Source of the DNA: a virus
IMG/VR virus record: IMGVR_UViG_3300050821_006855
Coordinates: 1 to 34,579 of that record
Strand: one strand, 5' to 3'
DNA: 34,579 bases
The stretch's first letter is position 1. Each line of letters starts with the position of its first letter. The notes under the pieces were generated by a model that saw nothing but the letters and a program-made list of their open reading frames with translations, searched no databases and was not told the origin of the DNA. Of this stretch, positions 7,707 through 30,582 are shown in pieces. Made by a program: the position numbers and the translations under genes.

Positions 7707-8253
7707 CGATCCCGCCTGGTAACGCGCGCAAAGTCGGCGCCTCTAAATCTTCCGGCCGCAGCTTGCGCAATTCCGCAAAGATTTCCCCGGCCAGGTTTTC
7801 GGTACGTTCTTGCGCATCAGTCAAACTGGACGCGCCATAACATTCTTTCGCAATTCGCGGAAAAACGTTTTGCACTTTCGCGCGGAACCTTAAAACCATG
7901 GCATCAATCGCTTCTAAGACTGGTCGCATCTCGATCATTTCGCCGCTTAACCGTTTAACCCGCATTTCGTTCACGGCCGCCGAGGCCAACGCGCGCCGAG
8001 CTCGGGCCTCATCGTAATGATCGCGCGGTGCGTGTTCACGCTGGTGCGTCAAATAGTTGACGTAATCCGCCACCGCCTGGTTGAGCAAATATTTGCCGCC
8101 GATCGGCACGCCGGCCGCGTCCCGCATGTGATGCAAAACGTTCTGGTGCGTCAGCGCGATTAATTTGTGCGGGCCCATTTGCAAAAGCGACGCGGCCGCC
8201 GTTGTGCCAATCGGAATCGCCAGGTCAATCGTCGGTTCGGCTTTTCGCGGCAT
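7684..8253 (-). CDS. Terminase small subunit, Nu1-like
   Basis: This 189-residue protein lies directly upstream of TerL and overlaps it. Nu1-like subunits bind the packaging site and recruit the large subunit. The sequence reads as an N-terminal helical DNA-binding part in which the protein is told to bind by a helix-turn-helix (AAASLLQMGPHKLIALTHQNV), then 'GVPIGGKYLLNQAVADYVNYL'. A long central charged helix follows (RARRALASAAVNEMRVKRLSGEMI), typical of the 'e..rl.ka.ae..elk...gelv' segment of DUF1441/Nu1 proteins. The C-terminal part 'AGEIFAELRKLRPEDLE' probably contacts TerL. Family assignment is from position and the central helix pattern. Confidence 0.8.
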   Translation of the reverse strand: MPRKAEPTIDLAIPIGTTAAASLLQMGPHKLIALTHQNVLHHMRDAAGVPIGGKYLLNQAVADYVNYLTHQREHAPRDHYDEARARRALASAAVNEMRVKRLSGEMIEMRPVLEAIDAMVLRFRAKVQNVFPRIAKECYGASSLTDAQERTENLAGEIFAELRKLRPEDLEAPTLRALPGGIDEQEAQE

Positions 8254-8392
8254 ACCATTCAGGGGTTGGGATGTAGATCAAAATTTATTTTTGATGCGTT
8301 TCGTTTTCTGGGGTCGTCTCCGCCCGCACCCCAAAATCCGGCGGAAGAACCTAACGCGCGAAAATTTTGTCGCGAATTTTGTTTTCCCCGCT
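8254..8392. other. Noncoding gap upstream of TerS, candidate cos/TerS-binding region
   Basis: These 139 bp have no plausible gene. They contain a TGGGGT/ACCCCA inverted repeat (8309-8314 with 8328-8333) and two adjacent similar units, CGCGAAAATTTTG (8357-8369) and CGCGAATTTTG (8371-8381). In GpA-terminase phages, cos and the terminase-binding repeats lie just upstream of the small subunit gene, so this is the best candidate site in the window. There is no direct evidence of cleavage. Confidence 0.35.
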
Positions 8393-8584
8393 TCATTCGG
8401 AAGGTGCCACGCGCACCGCCCTCAATTGATCTTTAAGCCGATGGTTCTCATCTTGCAGGCTAACGACTTGCTGTTTCAAATCTACAATCTGCATTACCAA
8501 ATAAAAAAAAGTTTCGGTGCTCGATCGCTTGGACAGCTTGAACATACTTTCAATCGGGTCAGGTTGCTGCGTTCGTTCACTCAT
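8393..8584 (-). CDS. Small coiled-coil protein, hypothetical
   Basis: This 63-residue protein is preceded by ATGA-type overlap with the next upstream gene. Residues about 28-55 (FYLVMQIVDLKQQVVSLQDENHRLKDQL) form a heptad-like amphipathic helix, probably a dimeric coiled coil. The N-terminus is short and polar. It is the last gene before the TerS upstream gap. No family is recognised, and a role in packaging or early regulation cannot be inferred from the sequence. Confidence 0.65.
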   Translation of the reverse strand: MSERTQQPDPIESMFKLSKRSSTETFFYLVMQIVDLKQQVVSLQDENHRLKDQLRAVRVAPSE

Positions 8585-8727
8585 AATTCTTCAAGTGCCG
8601 CGTCAACCCATTTCCGAAAGGCCTGGTCGCGCACCGATTCGTTACCTTCGGCATGCGCTTCCCAACCAGCATTGAAAGCGTCCTCGAAAAGTTTAAGCAA
8701 ATCGCCAAGTTTAACCTTATCGCTCAT
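8581..8727 (-). CDS. Small acidic helical protein, hypothetical
   Basis: This 48-residue protein (MSDKVKLGDLLKLFEDAF...WVDAALEEL) resembles many short phage proteins with a 'FeaGweA..e....d.af..Wv' pattern (FNAGWEAHAEGN and FRKWVDAALEEL). ATG 8727 was chosen because it overlaps the upstream TAA by 11 bp. A longer TTG-started frame reaches 8784 but would run well into the upstream gene. Function is unknown. Confidence 0.6.
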   Translation of the reverse strand: MSDKVKLGDLLKLFEDAFNAGWEAHAEGNESVRDQAFRKWVDAALEEL

Positions 8728-8872
8728 CTGTTCTAATTTTGAAACGCCTGGCCCATCGTTGTTCATCAGTCTCATTCGGAACAAATGGAATCGGGTGATC
8801 TAATTCCCATGCAACCAAAAATAACTGAATCAATTCCAGATCCGCGTTGGCTATTGCTTCTTTTGCGTTCAT
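8717..8872 (-). CDS. Small helical protein, hypothetical
   Basis: This 51-residue protein starts at ATG 8872, which forms an ATGA overlap with the stop of the upstream gene. The longer frame to 8953 is therefore not needed. It has a hydrophobic helix (DLELIQLFLVAWELD) and then a basic C-terminal segment (DEQRWARRFKIRTDER). No family is recognised. It is part of a run of four coupled small genes (9168-8393) upstream of packaging. Confidence 0.6.
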   Translation of the reverse strand: MNAKEAIANADLELIQLFLVAWELDHPIPFVPNETDEQRWARRFKIRTDER

Positions 8873-9168
8873 TGGATGCCTCTGCGTCTTTCCCGTCGTC
8901 GCTGGCAAATATGTTCGCGATGCTCTTGGTAGTAAGTGCGCCACCGTGCGCAATAAACTTCGCGTTCCATTTCAGACAGGCCGACGCCGGTCGGCGGGAA
9001 TAGAGTCGGGCTCGCCAGGCTCACCCATTCCTTGGCCCAACAAGCGGCTACTCGCGCGACCGTGCCCTGCACTCTGGGATCATAAGAGCCGATAAAGGAT
9101 TGCACGGTTTGAGCAAACCGTTGCTCGGCCGAGCTGACATCCAGAAAATGGGTTGATCGCGGCGCCAT
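8869..9168 (-). CDS. Hypothetical phage protein
   Basis: This 99-residue protein is the first gene of the small-gene run leading to TerS. The sequence is mainly helical with a Trp/Arg-rich second half (EREVYCARWRTYYQEHREHI) and a very basic tail (QRRRERRRG), which suggests nucleic-acid contact. No family is recognised. A 172-bp noncoding stretch lies upstream, so a promoter for this small block may be there. Confidence 0.6.
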   Translation of the reverse strand: MAPRSTHFLDVSSAEQRFAQTVQSFIGSYDPRVQGTVARVAACWAKEWVSLASPTLFPPTGVGLSEMEREVYCARWRTYYQEHREHICQRRRERRRGIQ

Positions 9169-9270
9169 TGGCTTTGAGTCTCGGAAAGGCTAGCAAACTG
9201 CTATACAGGCGGCAAATCCCAAAATCGAGAAAAACAAAACGCTCTAAAATCGTTTATAGGCGCGTTTGAT

Positions 9271-9291
9271 TGGTAGGCTGGTACATTGGTA
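9271..9291. repeat. Three TGGTA repeats at 8-bp period in an intergenic gap
   Basis: TGGTA occurs at 9271, 9279 and 9287, exactly 8 bp apart, within the 172-bp gap 9169-9340. The gap also holds the 12-bp palindrome AGGCGATCGCCT (9301-9312) in a GC-rich stretch followed on the minus strand by TTTT, a weak terminator candidate. It contains a TATAGC element near 9200 on the minus strand as well. No gene is seen in this gap. Confidence 0.5.
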
Positions 9292-9340
9292 AGGGGTAAA
9301 AGGCGATCGCCTGCCAGGCGCCAGCCTCGCGCGGCGGCGG

Positions 9341-9526
9341 TCATTTTGGGTGATGGGTCCAGGCCTGAAAGACGTCACAAACTTGTTGCATCATCCCGAT
9401 TTCCTTTTCGGCCTCACGTTTATCGATGATCGCCCGGGCAACCATCTTCGGATATTCCCGCCGGCGGCGGGCGACTTCGCGGCGCAGGCATTCGGCGAGC
9501 TCCGCGGTTGAATATTGATCAGCCAT
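9341..9526 (-). CDS. Small conserved-type phage protein, unknown
   Basis: This 61-residue helical protein reads MADQYSTAELAECLRREVARRRREYPKMV and then EKEIGMMQQVCDVFQAW. The pattern 'EL.ECLRREv..R...Yp..v......ke.eI..M..v...' is one I know from many short phage early proteins of unknown function. It follows the 132-residue gene by 6 bp and is the last gene of that block. The coding call is good; there is no functional inference. Confidence 0.7.
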   Translation of the reverse strand: MADQYSTAELAECLRREVARRRREYPKMVARAIIDKREAEKEIGMMQQVCDVFQAWTHHPK

Positions 9527-9532
9527 ACAATT

Positions 9533-19376: not shown

Positions 19377-20582
19377 TTAGGCGGCCGCCGGTGCCGGCAT
19401 TTGAATGATTTTTGTGCCCATCGTCGGCCGGATCCCAAACCAGGCCGCCCCGAGGCCGGGCTCGAGCCGCTTCATGTAAAAGCGTTTCATGGTGCTTTCA
19501 TTATCGCCCATCGCGTCGGCCACTTCGCCGGCCGTCCGGATCGAGGCCGCAAAACTCGCGTAAGAGTTGCGCAAAGCATTGTCGGGCACGTCGAGGCCAA
19601 GTGCATTGAGCAATTCCTTATTCAGCCGTTGCAATGTCGATTGCGAGATTTCCATTACCGGCGTGGTCTTGATCGGCACCAGGCGCAACCATTCGGCCGC
19701 CGCGGGCTCGAGCGGCACCCATCGCGATTGATCGGTTGCCCCGGTCTGTTTGCCGACCTCGTGGCGAATGCGGATCAAGTTGCGCGTCCAAAGGATATCG
19801 GCCCATTCAATCACCGGGTCGCTAGCATATGAGGAAATGATTTCGCACCGCCGCAGGCCGGCCAGACCGCCGAGCACATAGAACGGCAAAAGGCGCAAAT
19901 AGCGATCGGTCACCGGCTCGGCCGGCTTGATCGGCTCGAGGCCGGCAATCACAAAGAGAATTCGCCGAAACTCTTCCACTTCCAAATGATCGTTGTTGAC
20001 GCCCCACTTGTCCGTTGGTTTCATCCTGGCCATGGGATCGGCGCCGAGATAGCGCTCTTGAAAGGCCCAGGTCACAAAGGCGTGGATGTTGCGATATTGA
20101 CTCAGTCGCGTAGTCCCGGGCCCGAACCGCTTCAAATAAAGGTTGATCTTGTCCTCAGTCAATTGAGCCATTGGAAGTTTCGGCCCTACATCATGGCAAA
20201 GGCGGCGCAAGGTTGACCGATACTTGTAAATGGTCCGCGGGTTGCGCCCCTCGTGCTCCTGGTGCTTCATGTAGGCATCGCAGGCCTCTAACAGTGTTGC
20301 CGGCTTGGCGATCGAGAGCACGGTTTTTTCATGATGATCAAAAGCTTCGAAAATCTGGTGCGGGTTGCCTTTGTATTTGGCCTTGATCAGTTGTAAAAGC
20401 GCTAGGTCATCGTCGGTCACTTCTAACTTTTTGAGCGTGCCATCCTTTCGGATCCGCCGGGCCTCGGCCTCGGCTTGCTCTTTAGTGTCGAAAAACCGCA
20501 TTGCCCGTTTGCCGGTTCCGGTGAGTGAAGCGGGTAAAATAAGCCGCCACTTGCCATGTTGTTCGCAGAAGTTTGCTTTCAT
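19377..20582 (-). CDS. int: Tyrosine recombinase / phage integrase
   Basis: This 401-residue integrase has an arm-binding-type N-terminus (WRLILPASLTGTGKRAMRFF, like SAM-like AP2 folds), a core-binding helical domain (about 93-190) and a catalytic domain. Catalytic residues visible are Arg244 (GLRRCEI), a likely Lys278 (GKQTG), Arg338 (NALRNSYAS) and the nucleophile Tyr369 (MKRFYMK). The usual His of HxxR is Asn335, and the second His position is Asp360 (AMGDNES). I associate NxLR with integrases of Verrucomicrobiota/Planctomycetota. It ends with WFGIRP, common in that group. It lies beside attP and its start overlaps the 70-residue upstream gene by ATGA. Confidence 0.93.
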   Translation of the reverse strand: MKANFCEQHGKWRLILPASLTGTGKRAMRFFDTKEQAEAEARRIRKDGTLKKLEVTDDDLALLQLIKAKYKGNPHQIFEAFDHHEKTVLSIAKPATLLEACDAYMKHQEHEGRNPRTIYKYRSTLRRLCHDVGPKLPMAQLTEDKINLYLKRFGPGTTRLSQYRNIHAFVTWAFQERYLGADPMARMKPTDKWGVNNDHLEVEEFRRILFVIAGLEPIKPAEPVTDRYLRLLPFYVLGGLAGLRRCEIISSYASDPVIEWADILWTRNLIRIRHEVGKQTGATDQSRWVPLEPAAAEWLRLVPIKTTPVMEISQSTLQRLNKELLNALGLDVPDNALRNSYASFAASIRTAGEVADAMGDNESTMKRFYMKRLEPGLGAAWFGIRPTMGTKIIQMPAPAAA

Positions 20583-21138: not shown

Positions 21139-21300
21139 ATGATATTTCGATACGCGAACATCGCCGAGAATAAAATTTACAGTCGTTTATTGGAGCTTTC
21201 CGATCCGGATTGGTTATTCGGTGTAGGGCCAACTTGGAAAACGATCATTGGCCGGTGCGCGTTTTTTGATTACGCAATGTTGTATGGTTGGATCCCATGA
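21139..21300 (+). CDS. Small protein coupled to the lysin, hypothetical
   Basis: This 53-residue ORF (MIFRYANIAENKIYSRLLEL ... GWIP) ends in an ATGA overlap with the lysin start, the same coupling seen throughout this genome. The sequence is moderately aromatic (WLFGVGPTWKTIIG; CAFFDYAMLYGW), with no clear transmembrane helix. It could be a lysis accessory protein by position, but no family is recognised. It is supported by coupling and by filling the space between attP and the lysin. Confidence 0.45.
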   Translation: MIFRYANIAENKIYSRLLELSDPDWLFGVGPTWKTIIGRCAFFDYAMLYGWIP

Positions 21301-22007
21301 GCACTCCCTTTAATTCGCAAACGATTGGCTTTATTCGCCGAATTCTTTCGGTGGCCGAAACGGGCAAACCCGAATGGGATCCGAGCGCCGTCTACATTTA
21401 CGCTGACGACAACCGTTTCAGCCCGGCGCGCAAACAGATCACGCTTTCAATCGGTTTCACTGAAGGCGGCGGGAATCTGAAAAGAGTGCTCGAGCGCTAC
21501 ATCGTCAAAGGCGGCGCTTTGGCCGGCGCATTCGCAACTTACTTGCCGAGCTTGGGCTCTAAAAACCAGCCAAGCCGAGCCGGCGATTCAAAGTTTACTG
21601 CTCTCTTGAAAGATGCCGGCAAAGAACCGGTGATGCGCCAGGCCCAAACCGAATGCTTTGACGAATTTTACTTAGAGCCGGCGTTTGTTTGGGCGGCCGC
21701 CAACGGTTTCACTTTGCCGCTTTCTCATCTAACGATTGGCGATAGCTTTTTGCATTCGGGCTCGATGTTGCCCAAACTTTTGAACAGTTTCAGGGAACCG
21801 CGGCCGAACAAAGGCGGTAACGAAAAAATCTGGATCCGTGACTATTTACGGGCCCGGCACGATTGGCTAAAAGGCCATTCCAACCGGCTTTTAAACAACA
21901 CGGTTTATCGCGTGAATTGCTACCTAGAACAACTCGCGCGCAACAATTGGCTGTTGGCCGATTCGCCCGTTGTTATGCACGGAACGCCCGTCAACCGCCT
22001 GGCGTGA
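21297..22007 (+). CDS. GH46-like lysozyme (chitosanase-family endolysin)
   Basis: This 236-residue enzyme resembles the chitosanase-like (GH46, lysozyme superfamily) endolysins of phages. Recognisable blocks are 'YIYADDNRFSPARKQITLSIGFTE' (read as YADDNRF then QITLSIGFTEGGGNL), 'FTALLKDAGKEPVMRQAQTECFD', 'NGFTLPLSHLTIGDSFLHSG' and 'WIRDYLRARHDWLKGHS'. The last two form the cleft side typical of this group. It lacks a signal peptide, so a holin would be needed. ATG 21297 is preferred because it gives ATGA with the upstream ORF; an in-frame TTG at 21288 is possible. It is the only clear peptidoglycan hydrolase in the window. Confidence 0.78.
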   Translation: MSTPFNSQTIGFIRRILSVAETGKPEWDPSAVYIYADDNRFSPARKQITLSIGFTEGGGNLKRVLERYIVKGGALAGAFATYLPSLGSKNQPSRAGDSKFTALLKDAGKEPVMRQAQTECFDEFYLEPAFVWAAANGFTLPLSHLTIGDSFLHSGSMLPKLLNSFREPRPNKGGNEKIWIRDYLRARHDWLKGHSNRLLNNTVYRVNCYLEQLARNNWLLADSPVVMHGTPVNRLA

Positions 22008-22244: not shown

Positions 22245-22287
22245 CGAAGTGAATCAGCAACCCAGCAAAGACGATTTGTTTAGTCAC
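22198..22287 (-). CDS. Possible 29-residue membrane microprotein after sulfatase
   Basis: A GTG-started frame overlaps the sulfatase stop by 8 bp. It encodes MTKQIVFAGLLIHFVIWMIL followed by LAIRLVDLD: Lys near the start, about 20 uninterrupted hydrophobic residues and a charged end. This is a convincing single transmembrane helix. The overlap suggests re-initiation after the sulfatase. It lies antisense to the end of a plus-strand gene, so chance is not excluded. Confidence 0.35.
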   Translation of the reverse strand: MTKQIVFAGLLIHFVIWMILLAIRLVDLD

Positions 22288-24244
22288 GGAAATTGTGAAA
22301 GAGCCGACGCGGTTCTTTAAATTCAAGCACCAAATTCGCTAGCCCCGAGGTCGCATAATTCAGATCCGCCGGCCCGGCTAGTGGCCCTAATTGCTTCGGC
22401 CAATCGGCCAACGATTGGACAAATTCGGCAATCGATTGGCCCACCGGCACAAAGAGCCAGAGTTGATCGCCGTAAAACTTCATGTATTGCCCGGCTTCCA
22501 AGTGCATCACCTCATAGGGATCACTCCGTAAATGGTTGATCGTCGGATTAGCCGGCACCTCGCGCAATGCGTCGAAAATGTTGCCAACCATATGCGCAAA
22601 AGACACTTTCCAATCGTTCCAGCGCACGGCGTTCAGTTGGCCGCTTTGGCCGAAATAGAGGAAATATTCCCGCGGCGCTCGGTCAACTTCGCCCAAGAAA
22701 TAGGGCATAAAGTCGAACCCGTCTAAATGCACCTTCCAGGTCTTATCGCGTAGCCGGCGCGATTTGCGGCCGGTCTTGAGTTCGGCGACAACGTTGGGAT
22801 TGCCGGCCGAGGCCATCAAGGTCGGAACAATATCCTCAAAAGAGAAAATGGCGTTTTCCCAAGTGCCGGGCTCGATCACGCCAGGCCAACGCATCACGAA
22901 CGGCACGCGGAAACCGCCCTCAAATGTCGTGCCTTTCTCGCCGTGAAAAGGGGTATTGCCGCCATCAGGCCAACTCGCGTGCTCGGCGCCGTTGTCGGTT
23001 GTCCAAATGACAATCGTGTCATCGGCAATTTTGAGTTTGTCCAATAACTCGAGCAACCGGCCGACAAACTTGTCATGCTCTAAGATCGCATCACCAAAGA
23101 GCCCGATCCCGGTGACTCCTTCACTCTCTTTTTTCAGCCGGGTCCAGACATGGCATCGGCTCGGGCAAACCCAACAAAAGAACGGCTCTTTCGCACGCGC
23201 GGCCTCTTTAATGAAACTCTCGGCCCGCGGCGCAATCTCTTTGTCATCATAATCGGGCATCCGAGCTCGGGTTAGCGGCCCGGTATCTTTAATTCGCTGA
23301 TTGCCTTGCGGGCCGAATCGCGGATCCTCGCGAATGTCTGGCGGCGGCCGATCCGTCGCCTGGCAATCCAACACCCCGCGCGGGCCGTAGGATGCAAGAA
23401 AGGCCGGGTCTTTGGGATAGAATTCCCCCTCGGGTTCCTCACTCGTGTTCAAGTGATACAAGTTGCCGTAAAATTCGTCGAACCCGTGCACGGTCGGTAA
23501 ATGCTTATTCCAATCGCCCAAATGATTCTTGCCGAATTGCCCGGTGCGATAACCTTCCTCTTTGAGTAGATCGGCCAGTGTCGGGGTCCAGTCCGGAATC
23601 CCATGTTCGCTCCCGGGCATTCCCACCGCGGTCAAACCAGTTCGAAACGGACATTGCCCTAGAATGAAGGCCGAGCGGCCGGCGGTACAACTGTTCTGCC
23701 CATAAGCGTCGGTAAAGATGGCCCCCTCGGCCGCGATCCGATCAATGTTAGCGGTGCGAAATCCTTGAATGCCGTGCGTGTAACAACTCAAGTTCGAAAT
23801 GCCCACATCGTCAGACATGATCACCAGGATGTTAGGCTTACTCTTGCGCCGTTGTCGCCGGCGCCGAATAAGATGGCCAAGGCCCAGTTTGCGTTTCTGT
23901 TCCTCGGTGATTGGCTCATCAGGTAAGGGTTGCGCCGGCGCCTCGGGCTCGCCTGGTAGCGGTTGCACAGGCACGCCAGCACTCGGCGGTTCCATCGGAT
24001 AAGTCGGGCTCTCGGGATCCGGCAAACTAATTGGCGGCGCAATCTCAACGTCTTGGTCGGTGTGGCCGTCAGGCAAACTAATCGGCGGCGCCACCTCGCC
24101 GCCTTGATCGATCAGTTTACGTACCAGTACCCATTTGGCCTGGTAAACGTAATAAAATCCTTCCGAACGGACGGCATAAACATCACCGATTTGGGCGTGG
24201 TCAGGTAATTGGTCAACTGTCTCAACGATTCCTTTGATGTCCAT
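22280..24244 (-). CDS. Virion-type sulfatase: tail-fibre-like N-terminal module fused to arylsulfatase
   Basis: This 654-residue protein is in three parts. Residues 1-45 ('VDQLPDHAQIGDVYAVRSEG', 'YYVYQAKWVLV') match short beta modules found in phage tail fibres ('GDVY.V....y.y...kWv'). Residues 46-130 are a proline-rich linker with repeats APPISLPD (twice) and QPLP(G/D)EP, ending in a very basic RRRRQRRK. Residues 137-600 form an arylsulfatase domain: metal ligands Asp145-Asp146 (IMSDDVG) and Asp417-Asn418 (TTDNGAEH), formylglycine motif CTAGR (Cys186-Arg190), and Lys239/His241 (GKNHLGD). GEKGTTFEGGFRVPFVMRWPG (residues 435-455, shortened here) is also typical. It would remove sulfate esters from polysaccharide. 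Lack of a signal peptide and its place as last gene of the tail operon indicate a virion protein. It needs a host formylglycine-generating enzyme. Confidence 0.9.
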   Translation of the reverse strand: MDIKGIVETVDQLPDHAQIGDVYAVRSEGFYYVYQAKWVLVRKLIDQGGEVAPPISLPDGHTDQDVEIAPPISLPDPESPTYPMEPPSAGVPVQPLPGEPEAPAQPLPDEPITEEQKRKLGLGHLIRRRRQRRKSKPNILVIMSDDVGISNLSCYTHGIQGFRTANIDRIAAEGAIFTDAYGQNSCTAGRSAFILGQCPFRTGLTAVGMPGSEHGIPDWTPTLADLLKEEGYRTGQFGKNHLGDWNKHLPTVHGFDEFYGNLYHLNTSEEPEGEFYPKDPAFLASYGPRGVLDCQATDRPPPDIREDPRFGPQGNQRIKDTGPLTRARMPDYDDKEIAPRAESFIKEAARAKEPFFCWVCPSRCHVWTRLKKESEGVTGIGLFGDAILEHDKFVGRLLELLDKLKIADDTIVIWTTDNGAEHASWPDGGNTPFHGEKGTTFEGGFRVPFVMRWPGVIEPGTWENAIFSFEDIVPTLMASAGNPNVVAELKTGRKSRRLRDKTWKVHLDGFDFMPYFLGEVDRAPREYFLYFGQSGQLNAVRWNDWKVSFAHMVGNIFDALREVPANPTINHLRSDPYEVMHLEAGQYMKFYGDQLWLFVPVGQSIAEFVQSLADWPKQLGPLAGPADLNYATSGLANLVLEFKEPRRLFHNFRD

Positions 24245-24247
24245 TTT

Positions 24248-24583
24248 CTAGGGGTTTTTCTGGGCTTGTTGTTCTAACTTCTTGATTGAATCCAGCATGA
24301 TTTGTTGGTTCGCTAAAGCTGTCTTGACTTGCGTATCTAATTTTTTTTGCGTTTCTAATGCTGTTTGATAGCCGTTCGCGATAGCATGTATTTCACTAAT
24401 CGCTCGGGCGAAATCCTCCCGCGTCTCGACTTCGGCCTGATGCCCTTGCCAAAGGTTGCCGCCGCCGGCCAAGACCACTAAGGCCATCAAGAGCTTTTGC
24501 CCGTTCTCACCCTGCAATAGCGTGACTAGGAGTCCTCCGGGGCCGTTACGCTTTCCTTGAGCCGGTCCAGCATTCGCGTCCAT
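24248..24583 (-). CDS. Membrane-anchored coiled-coil protein, possible holin or i-spanin
   Basis: This 111-residue protein has one hydrophobic helix (LLMALVVLAGGGNLW, about 31-45) and then a long helical region 'ISEIHAIANGYQTALETQKKL' and 'VKTALANQQIMLDSIKKLEQQ' with heptad character. One N-terminal membrane span plus an external coiled coil is the topology of an i-spanin (Rz); small holin-like proteins can look similar. It lies between tail-fibre genes and the sulfatase, 3 bp before the latter. Its first 58 bp overlap the preceding gene in another frame. Confidence 0.55.
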   Translation of the reverse strand: MDANAGPAQGKRNGPGGLLVTLLQGENGQKLLMALVVLAGGGNLWQGHQAEVETREDFARAISEIHAIANGYQTALETQKKLDTQVKTALANQQIMLDSIKKLEQQAQKNP

Positions 24584-24759
24584 AGGGTTTTGTCTTTCAC
24601 TTGCCGGGCCTTGAGCTCGGCCAATTGGTTTTGAAGTTCGCGCACTTGTTTCACCAGTAGGCTCACGGTGCCGGCCAGGTTTTCGAGCCGGGCCGCGTCC
24701 AAAGCTATCGCCGGTTCGGTTTGCACAAATCCAACGAAACCGCCTTTAGTCGTTTTCAT
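24526..24759 (-). CDS. Small coiled-coil protein in tail-fibre region
   Basis: This 77-residue protein starts MKTTKGGFVGFVQTEPAIAL and then forms a long helix 'LVKQVRELQNQLAELKARQV' with leucines at heptad spacing, probably trimeric or dimeric. ATG 24759 makes ATGA with the upstream stop, so the longer frame to 24921, which reads Arg-rich antisense-like sequence, is rejected. It may be a fibre-associated chaperone or connector. No family is recognised. Confidence 0.65.
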   Translation of the reverse strand: MKTTKGGFVGFVQTEPAIALDAARLENLAGTVSLLVKQVRELQNQLAELKARQVKDKTLWTRMLDRLKESVTAPEDS

Positions 24760-24914
24760 AGTAACCAGTCCGGAATTTCCGCGGTGCCGAGCTCGGTTCG
24801 AATTTCGGTTTCCGCCGCGGTTTGTTCTTCGGTCGTAATCCGCCGATCGGCCGGCGCATGAAACCCGAAACCGGCGCCAGGCCCAAACTCTGTGACTTTC
24901 GAACCGAATGGCAT
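24756..24914 (-). CDS. Small protein in tail-fibre operon
   Basis: This 52-residue protein (MPFGSKVTEFGPGAGFGFHA ... TAEIPDWLL) has a Gly/Phe-rich N-terminus and an acidic helical C-terminus (RRITTEEQTAAETEIRTEL). It begins 3 bp after the stop of the 234-residue fibre gene and ends with ATGA over the next start. These two couplings are the support for a real gene. Function is unknown. It is too short for most ORF callers. Confidence 0.6.
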   Translation of the reverse strand: MPFGSKVTEFGPGAGFGFHAPADRRITTEEQTAAETEIRTELGTAEIPDWLL

Positions 24915-24917
24915 AAA

Positions 24918-25622
24918 TCAAAGAGGTAAGGTTAAATCGAAAATCTCATTTAGATAAAAAACCAGCGTCGCGGTCGGCACGAATACGCTCAACGTGCCGG
25001 TGTTTTGCAAAACTAAACCGACGGCGTGAAATTGGCCCGATCCGCCAGCCGAGCCGGTCGAAAGGCGATATTGAAGAGCAGTGACGGGCCGATAGCCAAC
25101 CGGGAATGTACCCATTAAAACTGGTGTCGCCCCTGGATTAACAGGATCGCCGGTTATCCGGCGCATTTCTCCAATCACTTCTAATTGATCCCCAAAGTGC
25201 AAGGTGCGATAGCCGACTTGCCAACTAAACCAGCCGGTGGCCGCTTGAAAACCTTGCGCCGGCCCCGCGCCACGGATCCAAGCGCCATCGCGCCGGCCAT
25301 AAACCTGGCCATCAATGGGTGCCTCGCCGATCCCGGCGGCTCCGATCCGCTGATTAGTGTCTAGGACGTAGGTCAACGGGCCCTCGGCCACCAGCGAGAT
25401 TTCCATAGAACGCGGCGCGCTCTCGCTATCGGTAAAGGAAAAGCCGCGTTCGAGCTTGGTCGAATCATGGGCGCCAGGCGAGGCGTGCCCGCCCGAATAG
25501 TTAAACCATAGGGTGCTCGGCCCGTAATTGACAATTGACCATTGAGCACCGCGCGTAAACCACTCGAGGGTTTCACTTTCTAAGGCGGCCAGTTGCCGCG
25601 TGTTTTGCCGGTGCGCTTGCAT
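24918..25622 (-). CDS. Tail-fibre-like protein B, short paralogue
   Basis: This 234-residue protein is paralogous to its upstream neighbour. Both start MQA(H/N)RQNTRQLAA, carry 'EWFT(R/Q)GA(Q/E)WSI(V/L)NYGP.TLWF.Y' and 'FTDS.SAPR', then '(T)N QR.GA...GEAP.DG..YGRR..AW' and a C-terminal receptor-type domain with 'PVGYRPVTALQYRLS'. This copy lacks the roughly 195-residue middle section of the longer protein. The 'YGRRDGAWIRG' turn is typical of phage fibre linker repeats. It is probably a structural component of the tail-fibre tip or an alternative receptor-binding protein. Confidence 0.75.
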   Translation of the reverse strand: MQAHRQNTRQLAALESETLEWFTRGAQWSIVNYGPSTLWFNYSGGHASPGAHDSTKLERGFSFTDSESAPRSMEISLVAEGPLTYVLDTNQRIGAAGIGEAPIDGQVYGRRDGAWIRGAGPAQGFQAATGWFSWQVGYRTLHFGDQLEVIGEMRRITGDPVNPGATPVLMGTFPVGYRPVTALQYRLSTGSAGGSGQFHAVGLVLQNTGTLSVFVPTATLVFYLNEIFDLTLPL

Positions 25623-25627
25623 CGAAT

Positions 25628-26917
25628 TTATAGCAACCGTTCCAAGCCGGTGCCGCCCATTGTTAAACCAAAAATATTTGAAATATAAACTCCCATCGTT
25701 CCTTGGAGCGGCGGTGTTGCCGCCGAGTCAAGCGGTGCGTGCCCGTAAAAACTCAAACTGCCGGTTACATCAAGTGACAAAAAACCGTACTCGATAACTT
25801 GCTCAGGCGCCGAATCCACACCAACACCGGCAACAGCCGCACAAATTTGGATTTGATTCCCGATGACGGGCCGAAACCCAGGCGGGAATTGGCACAAGTT
25901 AACTTGTCCCGCAACGCCCGGGGGAATGGCAGTCATTCGGTTAAGGAATCCGGTAATTTGTAGGACGGCGCCACCGTGTAAAAGCCGATAGTTCAAGGTT
26001 TGCGCCGCCGACCAGCCGGCGCCGGTCACTGGAATTGTTTGAATCGGCCCGGCGGCCGCTAAGGCGTCAACGTAAAATTTAGTGGTCGCGTGAAGAGGGG
26101 AACTTGGTCCGCCAGCATCCAAAGTAAGGTTACGCGCCCGGATATCGATTGGGGTTTCGCTCGTGCCGGCTTGGAACATTAATTCGTCCGCGAAATCGTT
26201 TAAAGCAATTTTGCCGATATGAAATCCACCGTTTTGCACCTCGTTATTGTTCATGAACACAATTGCGACGGTGCCCGGGGTCGGACTTTGATTCATACCC
26301 TTGGCAGCATGTATCAAAAGAAGATGTTGCTGATTATAGAAGTTCGCCGGGCCGGCCGGCCGAACCACCTCAACCCGCCCGTTATCAAGCAGTACATGAG
26401 CACTATCCATTACCAGGTTGCCGGTCATGCTATCCCCGGACTTATTGACAACCGCCACCCAAGCCTCATCACCGCCGCGCCGGCCGTGCGTTAGTGTAGC
26501 GCTCGGCCCCGTTCCCGGCGCCTCGGGAATACCAGGCGGAACGCGATCCCAGGCCGCACTACGTCGGCCGTAGAGCTCGCCATCTTCAGGCGCCTCACCA
26601 ATCCCACCGCCTGGCGGCAATGTGCCGGCACCGTAACGTTGATTGGTGTTCAAGCAATAGGTCAAGCCGGTGCCCTCGGCCATTAAAGAGAGTTGCAAAG
26701 CCCGCGGCGCGCTCGCGCTATCGGTGAATGAATAGCCGGCCTCGAGCTTGGTTGCTTGCACCTCACCGGGTGCCGCATCAACCCCGGGCGTGTAGCTAAA
26801 CCAGAGGGTGCCCGGGCCGTAATTGAGAATCGACCACTCGGCCCCTTGCGTAAACCATTCCATTATTTCGGAAGCGCCGGCGGCCAGTTGGCGGGTATTT
26901 TGGCGATTAGCTTGCAT
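25628..26917 (-). CDS. Tail-fibre-like protein A, long paralogue
   Basis: This 429-residue protein has the same N-terminal domain as the next gene, then an 'YGRRSAAWDRV' linker and a central section with 'NKSGDSMTGNLVMDSAHV', the phage fibre repeat that precedes trimeric beta structure. The beta-prism-like C-terminus has 'QFPPGFRPVIGNQIQI', paralogous to the 'FPVGYRPV' segment of the shorter protein. The 'GDSMTGNL' repeat is diagnostic of tail-fibre proteins. It probably forms the host-binding fibre and is attached through the 619-frame fibre (26920-28710). Confidence 0.82.
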   Translation of the reverse strand: MQANRQNTRQLAAGASEIMEWFTQGAEWSILNYGPGTLWFSYTPGVDAAPGEVQATKLEAGYSFTDSASAPRALQLSLMAEGTGLTYCLNTNQRYGAGTLPPGGGIGEAPEDGELYGRRSAAWDRVPPGIPEAPGTGPSATLTHGRRGGDEAWVAVVNKSGDSMTGNLVMDSAHVLLDNGRVEVVRPAGPANFYNQQHLLLIHAAKGMNQSPTPGTVAIVFMNNNEVQNGGFHIGKIALNDFADELMFQAGTSETPIDIRARNLTLDAGGPSSPLHATTKFYVDALAAAGPIQTIPVTGAGWSAAQTLNYRLLHGGAVLQITGFLNRMTAIPPGVAGQVNLCQFPPGFRPVIGNQIQICAAVAGVGVDSAPEQVIEYGFLSLDVTGSLSFYGHAPLDSAATPPLQGTMGVYISNIFGLTMGGTGLERLL

Positions 26918-26919
26918 GA

Positions 26920-28710
26920 TCAGATTTCCGGTAAAGTTTCGGCTCCTTCTTCTTCTTCAAGTGCACCGCCCGGCCGGAAGAGACAACCATCTGCGCTAAC
27001 TGCCGCCGCATTGGCTGGCGTATTAGTAGTTACATAAGACAACGGTGGCGCTCCGGAATTTTGTAATGACGAAAGGATGTTTAAAAAAACATCTTGAACC
27101 GGTGTATTTACGCTAATGAATGATTGGTCACCATAGAAACTCGCATGGGAAGCATTTTGAGAAATGCCACCTTGGGCATTGTAGAAACTTTCGGTTCCGG
27201 AAAAAGTCAAGGAAGCGCCCGAGGTAAGGAAAAGACCAGCGCCAGCGTTTCCACAAGTTCGGGTTGAACTAATGACCAAAGCAGAACCGAGAAGCCACAA
27301 ACCGCGCCGCAAATTGATATTAATAAATGAATTGACTATCTCGCCATCAGCCAAAAAATACGCGCCATCCGAATTCCGACTACTGTAACAATTATCTAGC
27401 CGCAAATAACCAGAGCCGCTATTGATGAATCCTTGACTAACATTGCTCGGATCGGTCCATGCAGAAACGCCGACTTGACGAAATTGAGCGACGCCGACGC
27501 TATTATTTATTCCGTTAATGATGGTTGTGCCGCTTGCGGTCCCGACCACCGCAAAATTGGCTAGTAACAATAGACCATTGCCGCGAATTGAAATGCCGCG
27601 AATCCCTGGGCCGAATGTTAAAACGCTTGTGAGCGGGAAAACATTTCCGGTTACTCCGGTGAAAGCCAACCAACCGGCGCGACCGGTTGCATATTCAAGT
27701 TCGGTATTACTTGGCCGAGCAGTAATCTGCCAAACACCGCTAGCCGTGGCACCTTGCGCATTGGCGGTGACAAGGCTAAGTTGTACCCCGATAAAATCGC
27801 CAACCGCTAATCCATCGAAAGCGCCCGCGGCACCAGTTAATCTAATGACGCCGCCGCTAGGGTTAGTAACCGAAGCGACCGCGCGCGTTGTGCCAAGTGT
27901 CCCGATGATTTGGATTCGATCACTGTTCGGATGAGTAATTGTGATGGGACTAGCAGAAAGATAAACGCCGGAATCAACATGAATAGTGGCAGTTCGTTCC
28001 GGTGGAATACTGATTGGTGTTAAATAATCGAGGGCATTTGGAATACTGGAAAAGTTAGGGAATACATCGAGATTGCCGAGCGCCACATATAAATCGAGAT
28101 CAATTGCCAAAACTCTTTGGGCGATTTCAACCGAAAATGGATCAAGCGGGTTCTCCGTTAGTTCAATCCCGAAACCGGCTACAGCTCGTTTGAACCTGAG
28201 GGTGTTCCCAATCTTTTCTCTAAACCAGCCAGGCCCCACGGTTTCAGCACCGATATTCTCAACCAGGATATCGCCACTTGTGCCAATAACCACCGTGACA
28301 TTGGGCGCCCGATCGATCACCACTTTGACCTTGAAAGCGTGAATGGATTCCACCGCCGGGTCGACATTATCCGCACCCGTCGCCAAGACGTTGGCCACCG
28401 AATAGAGCCGGTCGGGCTCGGCCCCGATATGAGCCATAACCCCGAGCTCGCACAGCTCGAAAGCGTTCGGCGCCTGGCTCGAATTAAAGGCCGCATCAAC
28501 TAACAAAATTCCGTCACCCTGGTCGACTTGCTGAATGATCCCGATATTCATTTCGGGACTAAAGAGCTCGGTCCTCGGCCAAAGGTCGGCCGGCGCGTTC
28601 GCCCGACCACTCCCGATGACCACGCCGGTAATCGTCAGGTTCTCGCCGGCATTGGCTCGGCCTAACATGTCGCGGCCGGCGTTCGTAAATTCTTGGCGGT
28701 TAATGCTCAT
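26920..28710 (-). CDS. Tail fibre protein with P2 gpH-like N-terminus and beta-helix body
   Basis: This 596-residue protein's N-terminal 150 residues are of the P2 gpH/Mu S attachment type: 'FTNAGRDMLGRANAGENLTITGVVIGSG', 'FNSSQAPNAFELCELGVMAHIG' and 'FKVKVVIDRA' (each a piece). This is the baseplate-attached end. The remaining part is a right-handed beta-helix-like region rich in short strands and Asn/Ser/Gly turns (RGISIRGNGLLLL; TTIINGINNS), ending in an acidic tail (LEEEEGAETLPEI). ATG 28710 makes ATGA with gpI, so the longer frame is rejected. It belongs to the fibre module that also includes the paralogues and probably the sulfatase. Confidence 0.88.
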   Translation of the reverse strand: MSINRQEFTNAGRDMLGRANAGENLTITGVVIGSGRANAPADLWPRTELFSPEMNIGIIQQVDQGDGILLVDAAFNSSQAPNAFELCELGVMAHIGAEPDRLYSVANVLATGADNVDPAVESIHAFKVKVVIDRAPNVTVVIGTSGDILVENIGAETVGPGWFREKIGNTLRFKRAVAGFGIELTENPLDPFSVEIAQRVLAIDLDLYVALGNLDVFPNFSSIPNALDYLTPISIPPERTATIHVDSGVYLSASPITITHPNSDRIQIIGTLGTTRAVASVTNPSGGVIRLTGAAGAFDGLAVGDFIGVQLSLVTANAQGATASGVWQITARPSNTELEYATGRAGWLAFTGVTGNVFPLTSVLTFGPGIRGISIRGNGLLLLANFAVVGTASGTTIINGINNSVGVAQFRQVGVSAWTDPSNVSQGFINSGSGYLRLDNCYSSRNSDGAYFLADGEIVNSFININLRRGLWLLGSALVISSTRTCGNAGAGLFLTSGASLTFSGTESFYNAQGGISQNASHASFYGDQSFISVNTPVQDVFLNILSSLQNSGAPPLSYVTTNTPANAAAVSADGCLFRPGGALEEEEGAETLPEI

Positions 28711-29354
28711 AAATTCCAAGGCGGCGGCGGCGCCTCGCTCGTGACATATTTCCAGGTTAAACTTGCCGCGCCCCACCAAATTTCTAGATCACTTCGGCGC
28801 GCTCGGATGATTCCCTCGGACCATCGCGTTAGCGGTTTGTAAGCTTGGACAATTTGCGCAACCCGTTGCTCGGCCTCGGGATTAACTACGTCTTGGTCAA
28901 TAATAATCCGGAACCGATAGCGATCGTGCCAAGTGCCGGCGCCGCCAGGATCGTCGATTGGATAGTTTGGCGGAACCGGGTTGGTTTTATATTCAAACCA
29001 TTCCTGCACAACGGCCGAGCTGGGCGGGAAAAACTGATCGCAAACATCTTGAATCAATTGCACCGTGCCTTTGCGGGTGTGCCAATCTAGGCTCGCTTTA
29101 ATCACCAGTTGCTTTAGTGCTACGGGTGCGGCCGCGTCATAGAAATCGACATGGAATTGCCAGGCCAACAAATCCAAAAGCTTGTGATCGGTGATTTGAT
29201 CGATCGCCGGCAAAATTATCGTTTGGGAAATGTCATCGATTAGTTCTCGAAATTGCCGGTCGAGCGCTTCGCAAACCGCCTGGACATTAACGTCATCCGC
29301 GATCGATGGCGGGCACGCATCAATTAACCGGCTTTCTCTGATTGGCACGCTCAT
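28707..29354 (-). CDS. I: Tail protein I (gpI)
   Basis: This 215-residue protein is of the P2 gpI family, a baseplate component linking gpJ to the tail fibre. The visible pattern is 'RLIDACPPSIADD', then 'LLDLLAWQFHVDFYD', the 'LAWqf.vdfyd' signature, 'SLDWHTRKGTVQLIQDVC' and 'YRFRIIID' followed by an 'AYKPLTRWSEGI' segment near the C-terminus. ATG 29354 is preferred over TTG 29372 because the extra residues overlap gpJ. It lies directly after gpJ and before the fibre, as in P2. Confidence 0.9.
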   Translation of the reverse strand: MSVPIRESRLIDACPPSIADDVNVQAVCEALDRQFRELIDDISQTIILPAIDQITDHKLLDLLAWQFHVDFYDAAAPVALKQLVIKASLDWHTRKGTVQLIQDVCDQFFPPSSAVVQEWFEYKTNPVPPNYPIDDPGGAGTWHDRYRFRIIIDQDVVNPEAEQRVAQIVQAYKPLTRWSEGIIRARRSDLEIWWGAASLTWKYVTSEAPPPPWNL

Positions 29355-29358
29355 TTTT

Positions 29359-30582
29359 TTAGGGATCCTCAAATCCGCGGAACGTCACGACTTTTTGGTC
29401 CGGATCATTTACGGCCAACTGATTGTAGGCAAGGTCTTGATAAGCCGGGATCACCGGCACGAAAGCCCCGGGCGCCGAACCGGTCCCGGCAACTCGTTTC
29501 GCACCGGCCTGGATCACGCGCCGCACCAATTCATCGGGAATAATGTCGGCGCCGATCGCGCCGCGTTCCCATAGAATCCAATCGTCAACCGCCTGGTCAA
29601 CCTTTTGCTGAATTTCGGCGATCACGATTTCGTTTTCCCGCAAGGCCCACCAATCCAACCCGATCGGATAAAGAACCTCTTGAGGCGTGAACACGCTCAC
29701 GTAATCGGCCACCGGCCGCTTGTCGCGCGGATTGCAAGCCGCTAAGACCGCGGCCAAAACTTCCGGCGGCGGGATTTGGCCACCGCGCAAGAGCGGATAA
29801 AGATGCGCCTCGCCGGCGATCGCGGGCGCCGAATACACCACACATTGGATAATGTCCGGGTGTGCCCGCAAAGCCCAATAGCGATAAGCATCCTCGGGCC
29901 CGCAGGTCGAAAAGCTTTCGGGCGTTAGCCACGTTCGATATCGATAGCGATCGTCGGCCTCATCGTCAGCGCCGCCAGCGGTTTCAGAGATATTCCTAAC
30001 ATTGACGCCGAAAGGTTGATTCCAGTTGACCAGGGCCGAAACCTGGCCCGGGACGTAGCCGTTACCAACTCGGCCAATGGTCAAGCATTCCGCCGGGCTC
30101 GAACCGCTTTGCTCTCCCGCTGGAATGATAATCGTTTCAGTTGTCTCAAAAACCAGTTCGTTAATTGTCGAGGCTTGGGCGCCTGGCGTGATCACCGTAT
30201 CAACCGTCATGGTCGCGGTTAAGGTGAATTCGAGCGTGGTCTTTGCGGCTTGCGCCGGCACCCGATCGGCCCGCGGCCCGTAGAGCGCGGCCAACTCGGT
30301 TAAGAAATCGCCGACCGAATACTTGAGCAAATTCATTTTGCACCCCTGATCGATCAAAACGCGCAATTGCACGATCAATTGGCAAACGGTCAAAATCAGC
30401 ATTCGGATCGGATCGGCCGGCGCGAGGGTCTTGGCAATGTTAGTTAAGGCCAAATACGCCGTTTGATAATCGGCGATCGCCTCGGCCTTGATGAGCGCGG
30501 GATCTTTCACCGCGAACTCGACATCGGGCACGTGCGCCAGGCTCGGCGGGTAGGTAGGCTGATATATGGGCCCGTTGCTCAT
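29359..30582 (-). CDS. J: Baseplate assembly protein J (gpJ)
   Basis: This 407-residue protein is of the P2 gpJ/Mu gp47 family, forming the baseplate wedge rim. Family segments are 'LLKYSVGDFLTELAALYG' (about 102-119), 'ITPGAQASTINELVFETTE', 'ISETAGGADDEADDRYRYR' and 'RAHPDIIQCVVYSAP'. The 'GGADdE.ddryR.R' loop is diagnostic. Start ATG 30582 shares one base with the stop of the gp25-like gene (TGATG). It sits between gpW/gp25 and gpI as in P2. Confidence 0.93.
   Translation of the reverse strand: MSNGPIYQPTYPPSLAHVPDVEFAVKDPALIKAEAIADYQTAYLALTNIAKTLAPADPIRMLILTVCQLIVQLRVLIDQGCKMNLLKYSVGDFLTELAALYGPRADRVPAQAAKTTLEFTLTATMTVDTVITPGAQASTINELVFETTETIIIPAGEQSGSSPAECLTIGRVGNGYVPGQVSALVNWNQPFGVNVRNISETAGGADDEADDRYRYRTWLTPESFSTCGPEDAYRYWALRAHPDIIQCVVYSAPAIAGEAHLYPLLRGGQIPPPEVLAAVLAACNPRDKRPVADYVSVFTPQEVLYPIGLDWWALRENEIVIAEIQQKVDQAVDDWILWERGAIGADIIPDELVRRVIQAGAKRVAGTGSAPGAFVPVIPAYQDLAYNQLAVNDPDQKVVTFRGFEDP

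Follow-up and report, generated by a model that had tools for sequence, protein, structure and literature searches.

Why would a temperate phage, known from metagenomes only, end its run of tail genes with an enzyme whose bacterial relatives mostly look exported, joined to a module of the kind found in tail fibres? The question is raised by a gene on the minus strand of the window, which is the whole stretch of 34,579 nucleotides analysed here (IMG/VR record IMGVR_UViG_3300050821_006855). A first-pass annotation had read its product as a tail-spike-like sulfatase. Two phage relatives are used for comparison throughout: L002, 97% identical and from the same phage type as the window, and L003, 76% identical, from the same metagenome as L002 and the closest phage relative outside the window's phage type. 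The gene and the parts of its product are as follows.

22280-24244, minus strand: sulfatase gene, 654 residues (open reading frame, PF00884, fold, dN/dS of 0.045 against L002)
24098-24244, minus strand: fibre-type N-terminal module, similar to the collagen XV/XVIII trimerization domains, residues 1-49 (sequence and predicted fold)
23912-24103, minus strand: disordered proline-rich linker with two doublet repeats, residues 48-111 (model and repeat test)
23840-23911, minus strand: helix ending in the arginine-rich stretch IRRRRQRRKS, residues about 112-135 (model; L003 is basic here too)
22379-23839, minus strand: S1-type sulfatase domain with the C186-T-A-G-R formylglycine motif, residues 136-622

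Based on the domain score and the residues, the protein is assigned to the S1-type (formylglycine) sulfatases, with a predicted activity. PF00884 spans residues 137-481 (E=1e-49; 169.9 bits, with a Pfam gathering cut-off of 25), and the AF2 model, like all models of this protein a monomer prediction, shows a pLDDT mostly above 90 across residues ~137-620. The catalytic set is complete (D145, D146, C186-T-A-G-R190, K239, H241, H365, D417, N418, and K437), comprising the metal- and sulfate-binding residues and the C-x-A/P-x-R formylglycine motif of S1-type enzymes, and these positions are invariant in a 34-sequence alignment with the exception of K437, which is nearly so. The nearest solved folds are arylsulfatase A, steroid sulfatase, GALNS, and carrageenan and fucoidan sulfatases (Z about 43-45.5), the human arylsulfatase A (PDB code: 1n2l) aligning over 423 residues with Z=45.5; the complete arylsulfatase domain described at first pass is thus borne out. 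However, although PsFucS1 (PDB code: 7aj0, Z 43.6) and arylsulfatase A are alike the window protein in fold and active site, they share just 26-31% identity with it, so that their substrates are not transferable and these modelled fold matches do not reveal the substrate of the window enzyme. Also, an insert at residues ~297-318 was considered as a phage-specific mark and rejected because L015 and L020, which bear export signals, show a similar one.

For the N-terminal module, evidence from sequence and from predicted fold points in the same direction. Residues 1-49 match phrog_35286 (E=2e-5) and, at E values of 0.004-0.05, phrog_3904 and phrog_9525 ('tail fiber protein'), whereas the INPHARED matches are tail-fibre and BppU baseplate proteins, the best with E=4e-4. 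Pfam does not recognize these residues, an IMG/VR search with the module alone returned only a near-identical copy, and a sequence search of the PDB gave no informative match. Predicted alone, the module folds as a small beta module (pLDDT 81), whose best PDB match is the N-terminus of ORF18 from Geobacillus virus E2 (PDB code: 7chu, residues 4-60, Z 6.4), followed by the trimerization domains of collagen XV and XVIII (Z 5.4 and 5.0). These Z-scores are middling for a module of 49 residues, and the weight of the assignment comes from sequence, fold, and position pointing the same way. Moreover, collagen-like, tail-fibre, minor-tail, and head-fibre proteins of phages make up most of the best 50 fold matches in BFVD (probability 0.99-1.00), which also include two phage hydrolases, one being a GDSL hydrolase. 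The same module occurs in L014, another phage with a sulfatase, within a collagen-like fibre of the late operon (IKGxVxTxxxLP...IGD...WV; shuffle z=4.4), and this copy matches 59 INPHARED records that, among those listed, are mostly tail fibre, collagen-like, or virion structural proteins. Together, this suggests a widespread oligomerization-type unit with a putative attachment role.

Downstream of the module, the linker contains APPISLPD twice, 17 residues apart, and PxQPLPxEP twice, 11 residues apart, an arrangement that none of 2000 shuffles equalled. Residues 1-135 hold no hydrophobic stretch, the best 11-mer having a hydropathy of 0.56 by a heuristic that is not SignalP. Thus the fibre-type module, the repeated proline-rich linker, and the missing signal peptide of the first-pass annotation all hold, the last by this heuristic, and the structure prediction that it proposed for the N-terminus agrees.

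Could such a fusion simply be debris of domain shuffling or a mispredicted start, functionless? In L003 the N-terminus is only proline-rich and basic and the fibre module is absent, as debris would predict. Nonetheless, in the comparison with L002 the dN/dS is 0.045 for the whole gene, 0.061 for residues 1-135 (dS 0.8), and 0.032 for the rest, values below the 0.124 of gpJ in the same comparison, and the active site is intact. Both halves of the protein thus appear to be maintained by strong purifying selection, and because of this result debris is very improbable.

The position of the gene is informative on when the enzyme would be made. The neighbouring features, in the order of late transcription and then beyond the sulfatase, are the following.

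29359-30582, minus strand: baseplate J (domain search)
28707-29372, minus strand: tail protein I, Tail_P2_I (domain search)
26920-28779, minus strand: gpH-like tail fibre with a beta-helix region (domain search)
25628-26917, minus strand: fibre protein with the N-terminus MQA-RQNTRQLA, common to both fibres
24918-25622, minus strand: fibre protein with the same shared N-terminus
24526-24921, minus strand: small coiled-coil open reading frame between fibres and sulfatase
24248-24583, minus strand: 111-residue protein that combines a single TM segment with a coiled coil, possibly holin- or lysis-related (a like protein lies in the same place in L010)
21288-22007, plus strand: GH46-family protein, a probable endolysin (E=2e-14), convergent with the sulfatase and 273 bp from it
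19377-20582, minus strand: integrase, as in a temperate phage (domain search)

The late genes run in the order J, I, fibres, two small open reading frames, and sulfatase, with a like order in L002, and the sulfatase ATG lies 3 bp past the stop of the frame before it; beyond it come the convergent GH46 gene and then the integrase. The first pass was therefore right to place the sulfatase last in the tail operon, except that two small frames separate it from the fibres. Promoter and terminator scans around the sulfatase gave signals no clearer than in shuffles. A GH46-family (chitosanase) protein also recurs beside late genes in L009 (12243-12950) and L035 (10567-11346), the window copy matches no PHROG family, and such neighbours are probably an under-annotated endolysin type. 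In a 6.4-kb contig from another metagenome (L007, IMGVR 3300020581), gpJ is 100% identical to that of the window, and the contig stops before the sulfatase slot.

Display on the virion is favoured because a fibre module and linker are fused to the N-terminal side of the enzyme, no export signal is present, the gene sits with the late genes, and the module is under selection. In this reading, the phage-encoded S1 sulfatase would be made late together with the tail genes, assemble into a trimer through the fibre module at its N-terminus, and be displayed on the virion as a spike- or whisker-like structure by the flexible proline-rich linker; after conversion of C186 to formylglycine by a host formylglycine-generating enzyme (FGE), it would cleave sulfate esters of a sulfated polysaccharide on the host surface, and the desulfation would expose or alter the receptor layer during adsorption. 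We give a late-made, trimeric, virion-displayed sulfatase with an adsorption role a probability of slightly below one in two. The sequence itself shows the domain architecture, the intact active site, the gene order, and the purifying selection; trimerization, virion location, polysaccharide substrate, and adsorption role are all inferred. Counted against it are the module-less L003, whose gene lies outside a tail operon, the difference between the module and the N-terminus of the phage's own fibres, and the contents of the corresponding slot in L010, described below.

A comparison with the relatives shows where the enzyme comes from. The family is, judging from its sequences, a common bacterial one: S1 arylsulfatases with CTAGR from Vibrio, Rhizobium, Planctomycetota, and Verrucomicrobiota, about 50-60% identical, share the catalytic domain, motif, and C-terminal region of the window protein. 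However, an export-type N-terminus (heuristic) is present in 71 of the 80 closest cellular sequences, and no fibre module was seen in the N-termini inspected, the window protein being the opposite on both counts. The homologues are not all chromosomal and signal-bearing without a phage-like N-terminus, a pattern that the first-pass annotation had regarded as fatal to its proposal, given the signal-less phage homologues and the remaining 9 signal-less cellular ones. In a tree of 100 sequences (quick method), the window protein groups with L002 and L003 with full support and on a long stem, and at least four label changes are required to account for the eight clear phage copies that it contains; related sulfatases thus appear to be spread over four or more phage lineages.

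The contexts of these phage copies are diverse. In L014 and L016 the sulfatase has a signal peptide and lies in the tail operon after J, I, and a fibre, whereas in L003, an unrelated phage, the gene is found between HNH and the terminase small subunit. Signal peptides are also found in L017, a tail-sheath phage where the gene adjoins a proline-rich gene, in L035, a phage with a Mu-type portal where it precedes GH46, and in L023, L030, and L034, where it is close to head or tail genes, lies between them, or runs on the opposite strand. No signal is present in L022 (before GH19), in the actinophage-like L033, or in L151 and L152, where the gene is at a prophage end next to an integrase-like gene. 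The L030 copy (7908-9527) is on the opposite strand in a tail-gene cluster, between the tape-measure and a small gene, like a moron insertion.

This diversity bears on a second explanation, in which a bacterial sulfatase was captured as cargo (a moron or auxiliary metabolic gene) and would open organic sulfate as a resource to infected cells or lysogens, the virion having no use for it. A common bacterial family, phage copies in at least four separate lineages, and the signal-bearing copies of L023, L030, and L034 are in line with it, as are the distance of 1.7 kb to the integrase, a frequent cargo position, and a review in which sulfatase is mentioned among the auxiliary genes of groundwater viruses (PMC10029852). 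Also, the gene varies between sister phages, being absent from the L009 and L010 records, which may be incomplete (L009 is a fragment). Nonetheless, the window protein has no signal peptide, in contrast to most cellular relatives, is fused to a conserved fibre module, and follows a late gene at a tight spacing rather than standing as an independent unit. We consider cargo unlikely.

A third explanation emerges from the lysis genes. A late enzyme without signal peptide would accumulate in the cytoplasm, be freed at lysis, and act on a sulfated extracellular matrix so that the progeny disperse or diffuse. An endolysin or endolysin-like gene lies at most 0.8 kb from the sulfatase in five phage contexts (GH46 in the window, L014, GH46 in L035, GH19 in L022, and the amidase of L033), and in L033 the signal-less, proline-rich sulfatase starts 9 bp after the endolysin stop. 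Moreover, in L010 the same slot, between a 112-residue TM/coiled-coil protein and an M15 endolysin, is occupied by a 171-residue proline-rich protein and a signal-bearing beta-helix protein of 583 residues without a Pfam match, and L009 has GH46 and a proline-rich protein; these contents suggest a slot that takes polysaccharide-type enzymes and, in L010, a place for exported or released ones. In the window a proline-rich part is fused to the enzyme, whereas in the L010 slot a proline-rich protein is encoded separately. However, the adjacency count is post hoc, and a crude chance estimate for it, also post hoc and made on too small a set of contexts, receives little weight; no endolysin was seen beside the sulfatase in L003, L017, L023, L030, L034, or L151, cargo genes collect at operon ends regardless, and release at lysis leaves the fibre module unexplained. 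This is a rather unlikely account, and both it and cargo keep some probability because L003 lacks the module, some relatives look exported, and lysis genes lie nearby. The tail-spike-like sulfatase of the first-pass annotation stands in its module, linker, intact sulfatase, missing signal, tail-operon position, and purifying selection, and is weakened by L003 and by several phage relatives that look exported or like late cargo, some beside endolysins.

The 583-residue protein, seen in the record of L010 (L141 4314-6065, minus strand), has by eye the look of a right-handed beta-helix with proline-rich linkers and an SH3-like tail. Small unannotated proline-rich proteins also recur by fibre or lysis genes in L010 (20248-20763), L009 (12993-13439), L014 (10611-11105), and L017 (1522-2334).

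Activation probably depends on the host. FGE was found in none of 12 related virus records, a set outside which the window record lies, and activation would thus fall to the host. Among bacterial genomes with a relative of the sulfatase, all 14 that were checked encode FGE. A phage-borne FGE has been reported for Pseudoalteromonas phages (PMC10232697). As for the host itself, no gpJ relative was confirmed in GTDB, with matches of only 32-35% in 388 Verrucomicrobiota and 396 Acidobacteriota genomes.

Returning to virion display, the closest known architecture is ORF18 of Geobacillus virus E2 (PDB code: 7chu), where a module of the same predicted fold is likewise at the extreme N-terminus of a polysaccharide-type enzyme encoded among the tail genes of a temperate phage, ahead of holin, endolysin, and integrase. 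In that case the enzymatic part is annotated as a 'putative pectin lyase', whereas in the window it is a sulfatase. The first-pass statement that known phage depolymerases cut glycosidic bonds has to be corrected: deacetylating tail spikes or fibres are known from Acinetobacter phage Aristophanes (PMC8471582) and from Pectobacterium phages Possum (PMC9569702) and PP99 (PMC6989608), and they remove a side group with the backbone uncut, as proposed here for the sulfatase. However, those are isolated phages that remove acetyl, whereas in the window the group is sulfate and the action is predicted from sequence. A phrase search of the open literature, subscription literature aside, found no paper on phage-encoded sulfatases, so the mechanism claimed at first pass as undescribed has a precedent for acetyl and none in that search for sulfate. 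Tentatively, a tail-mounted trimeric sulfatase that desulfates host polysaccharide at adsorption would be the desulfating counterpart of deacetylating and depolymerizing tail spikes, implying sulfated host coats as receptors or shields; we regard this fuller proposal as possible, at somewhat less than even odds.

Even if the enzyme is released at lysis, one sulfatase family would have been captured repeatedly, by at least four phage lineages, a pattern missing from annotated phage records: INPHARED gives only weak and mostly unannotated matches, BFVD only giant-virus sulfatases, and the phrase search of the open literature no paper. INPHARED matches below about 40% identity were set aside as faecal fragments or bacterial-looking contigs. 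If the sulfatase rides on the virion, coat sulfation of bacteria could be tested as a trait in phage resistance and reception, and work on sulfated glycans would gain phages as a source of sulfatases.
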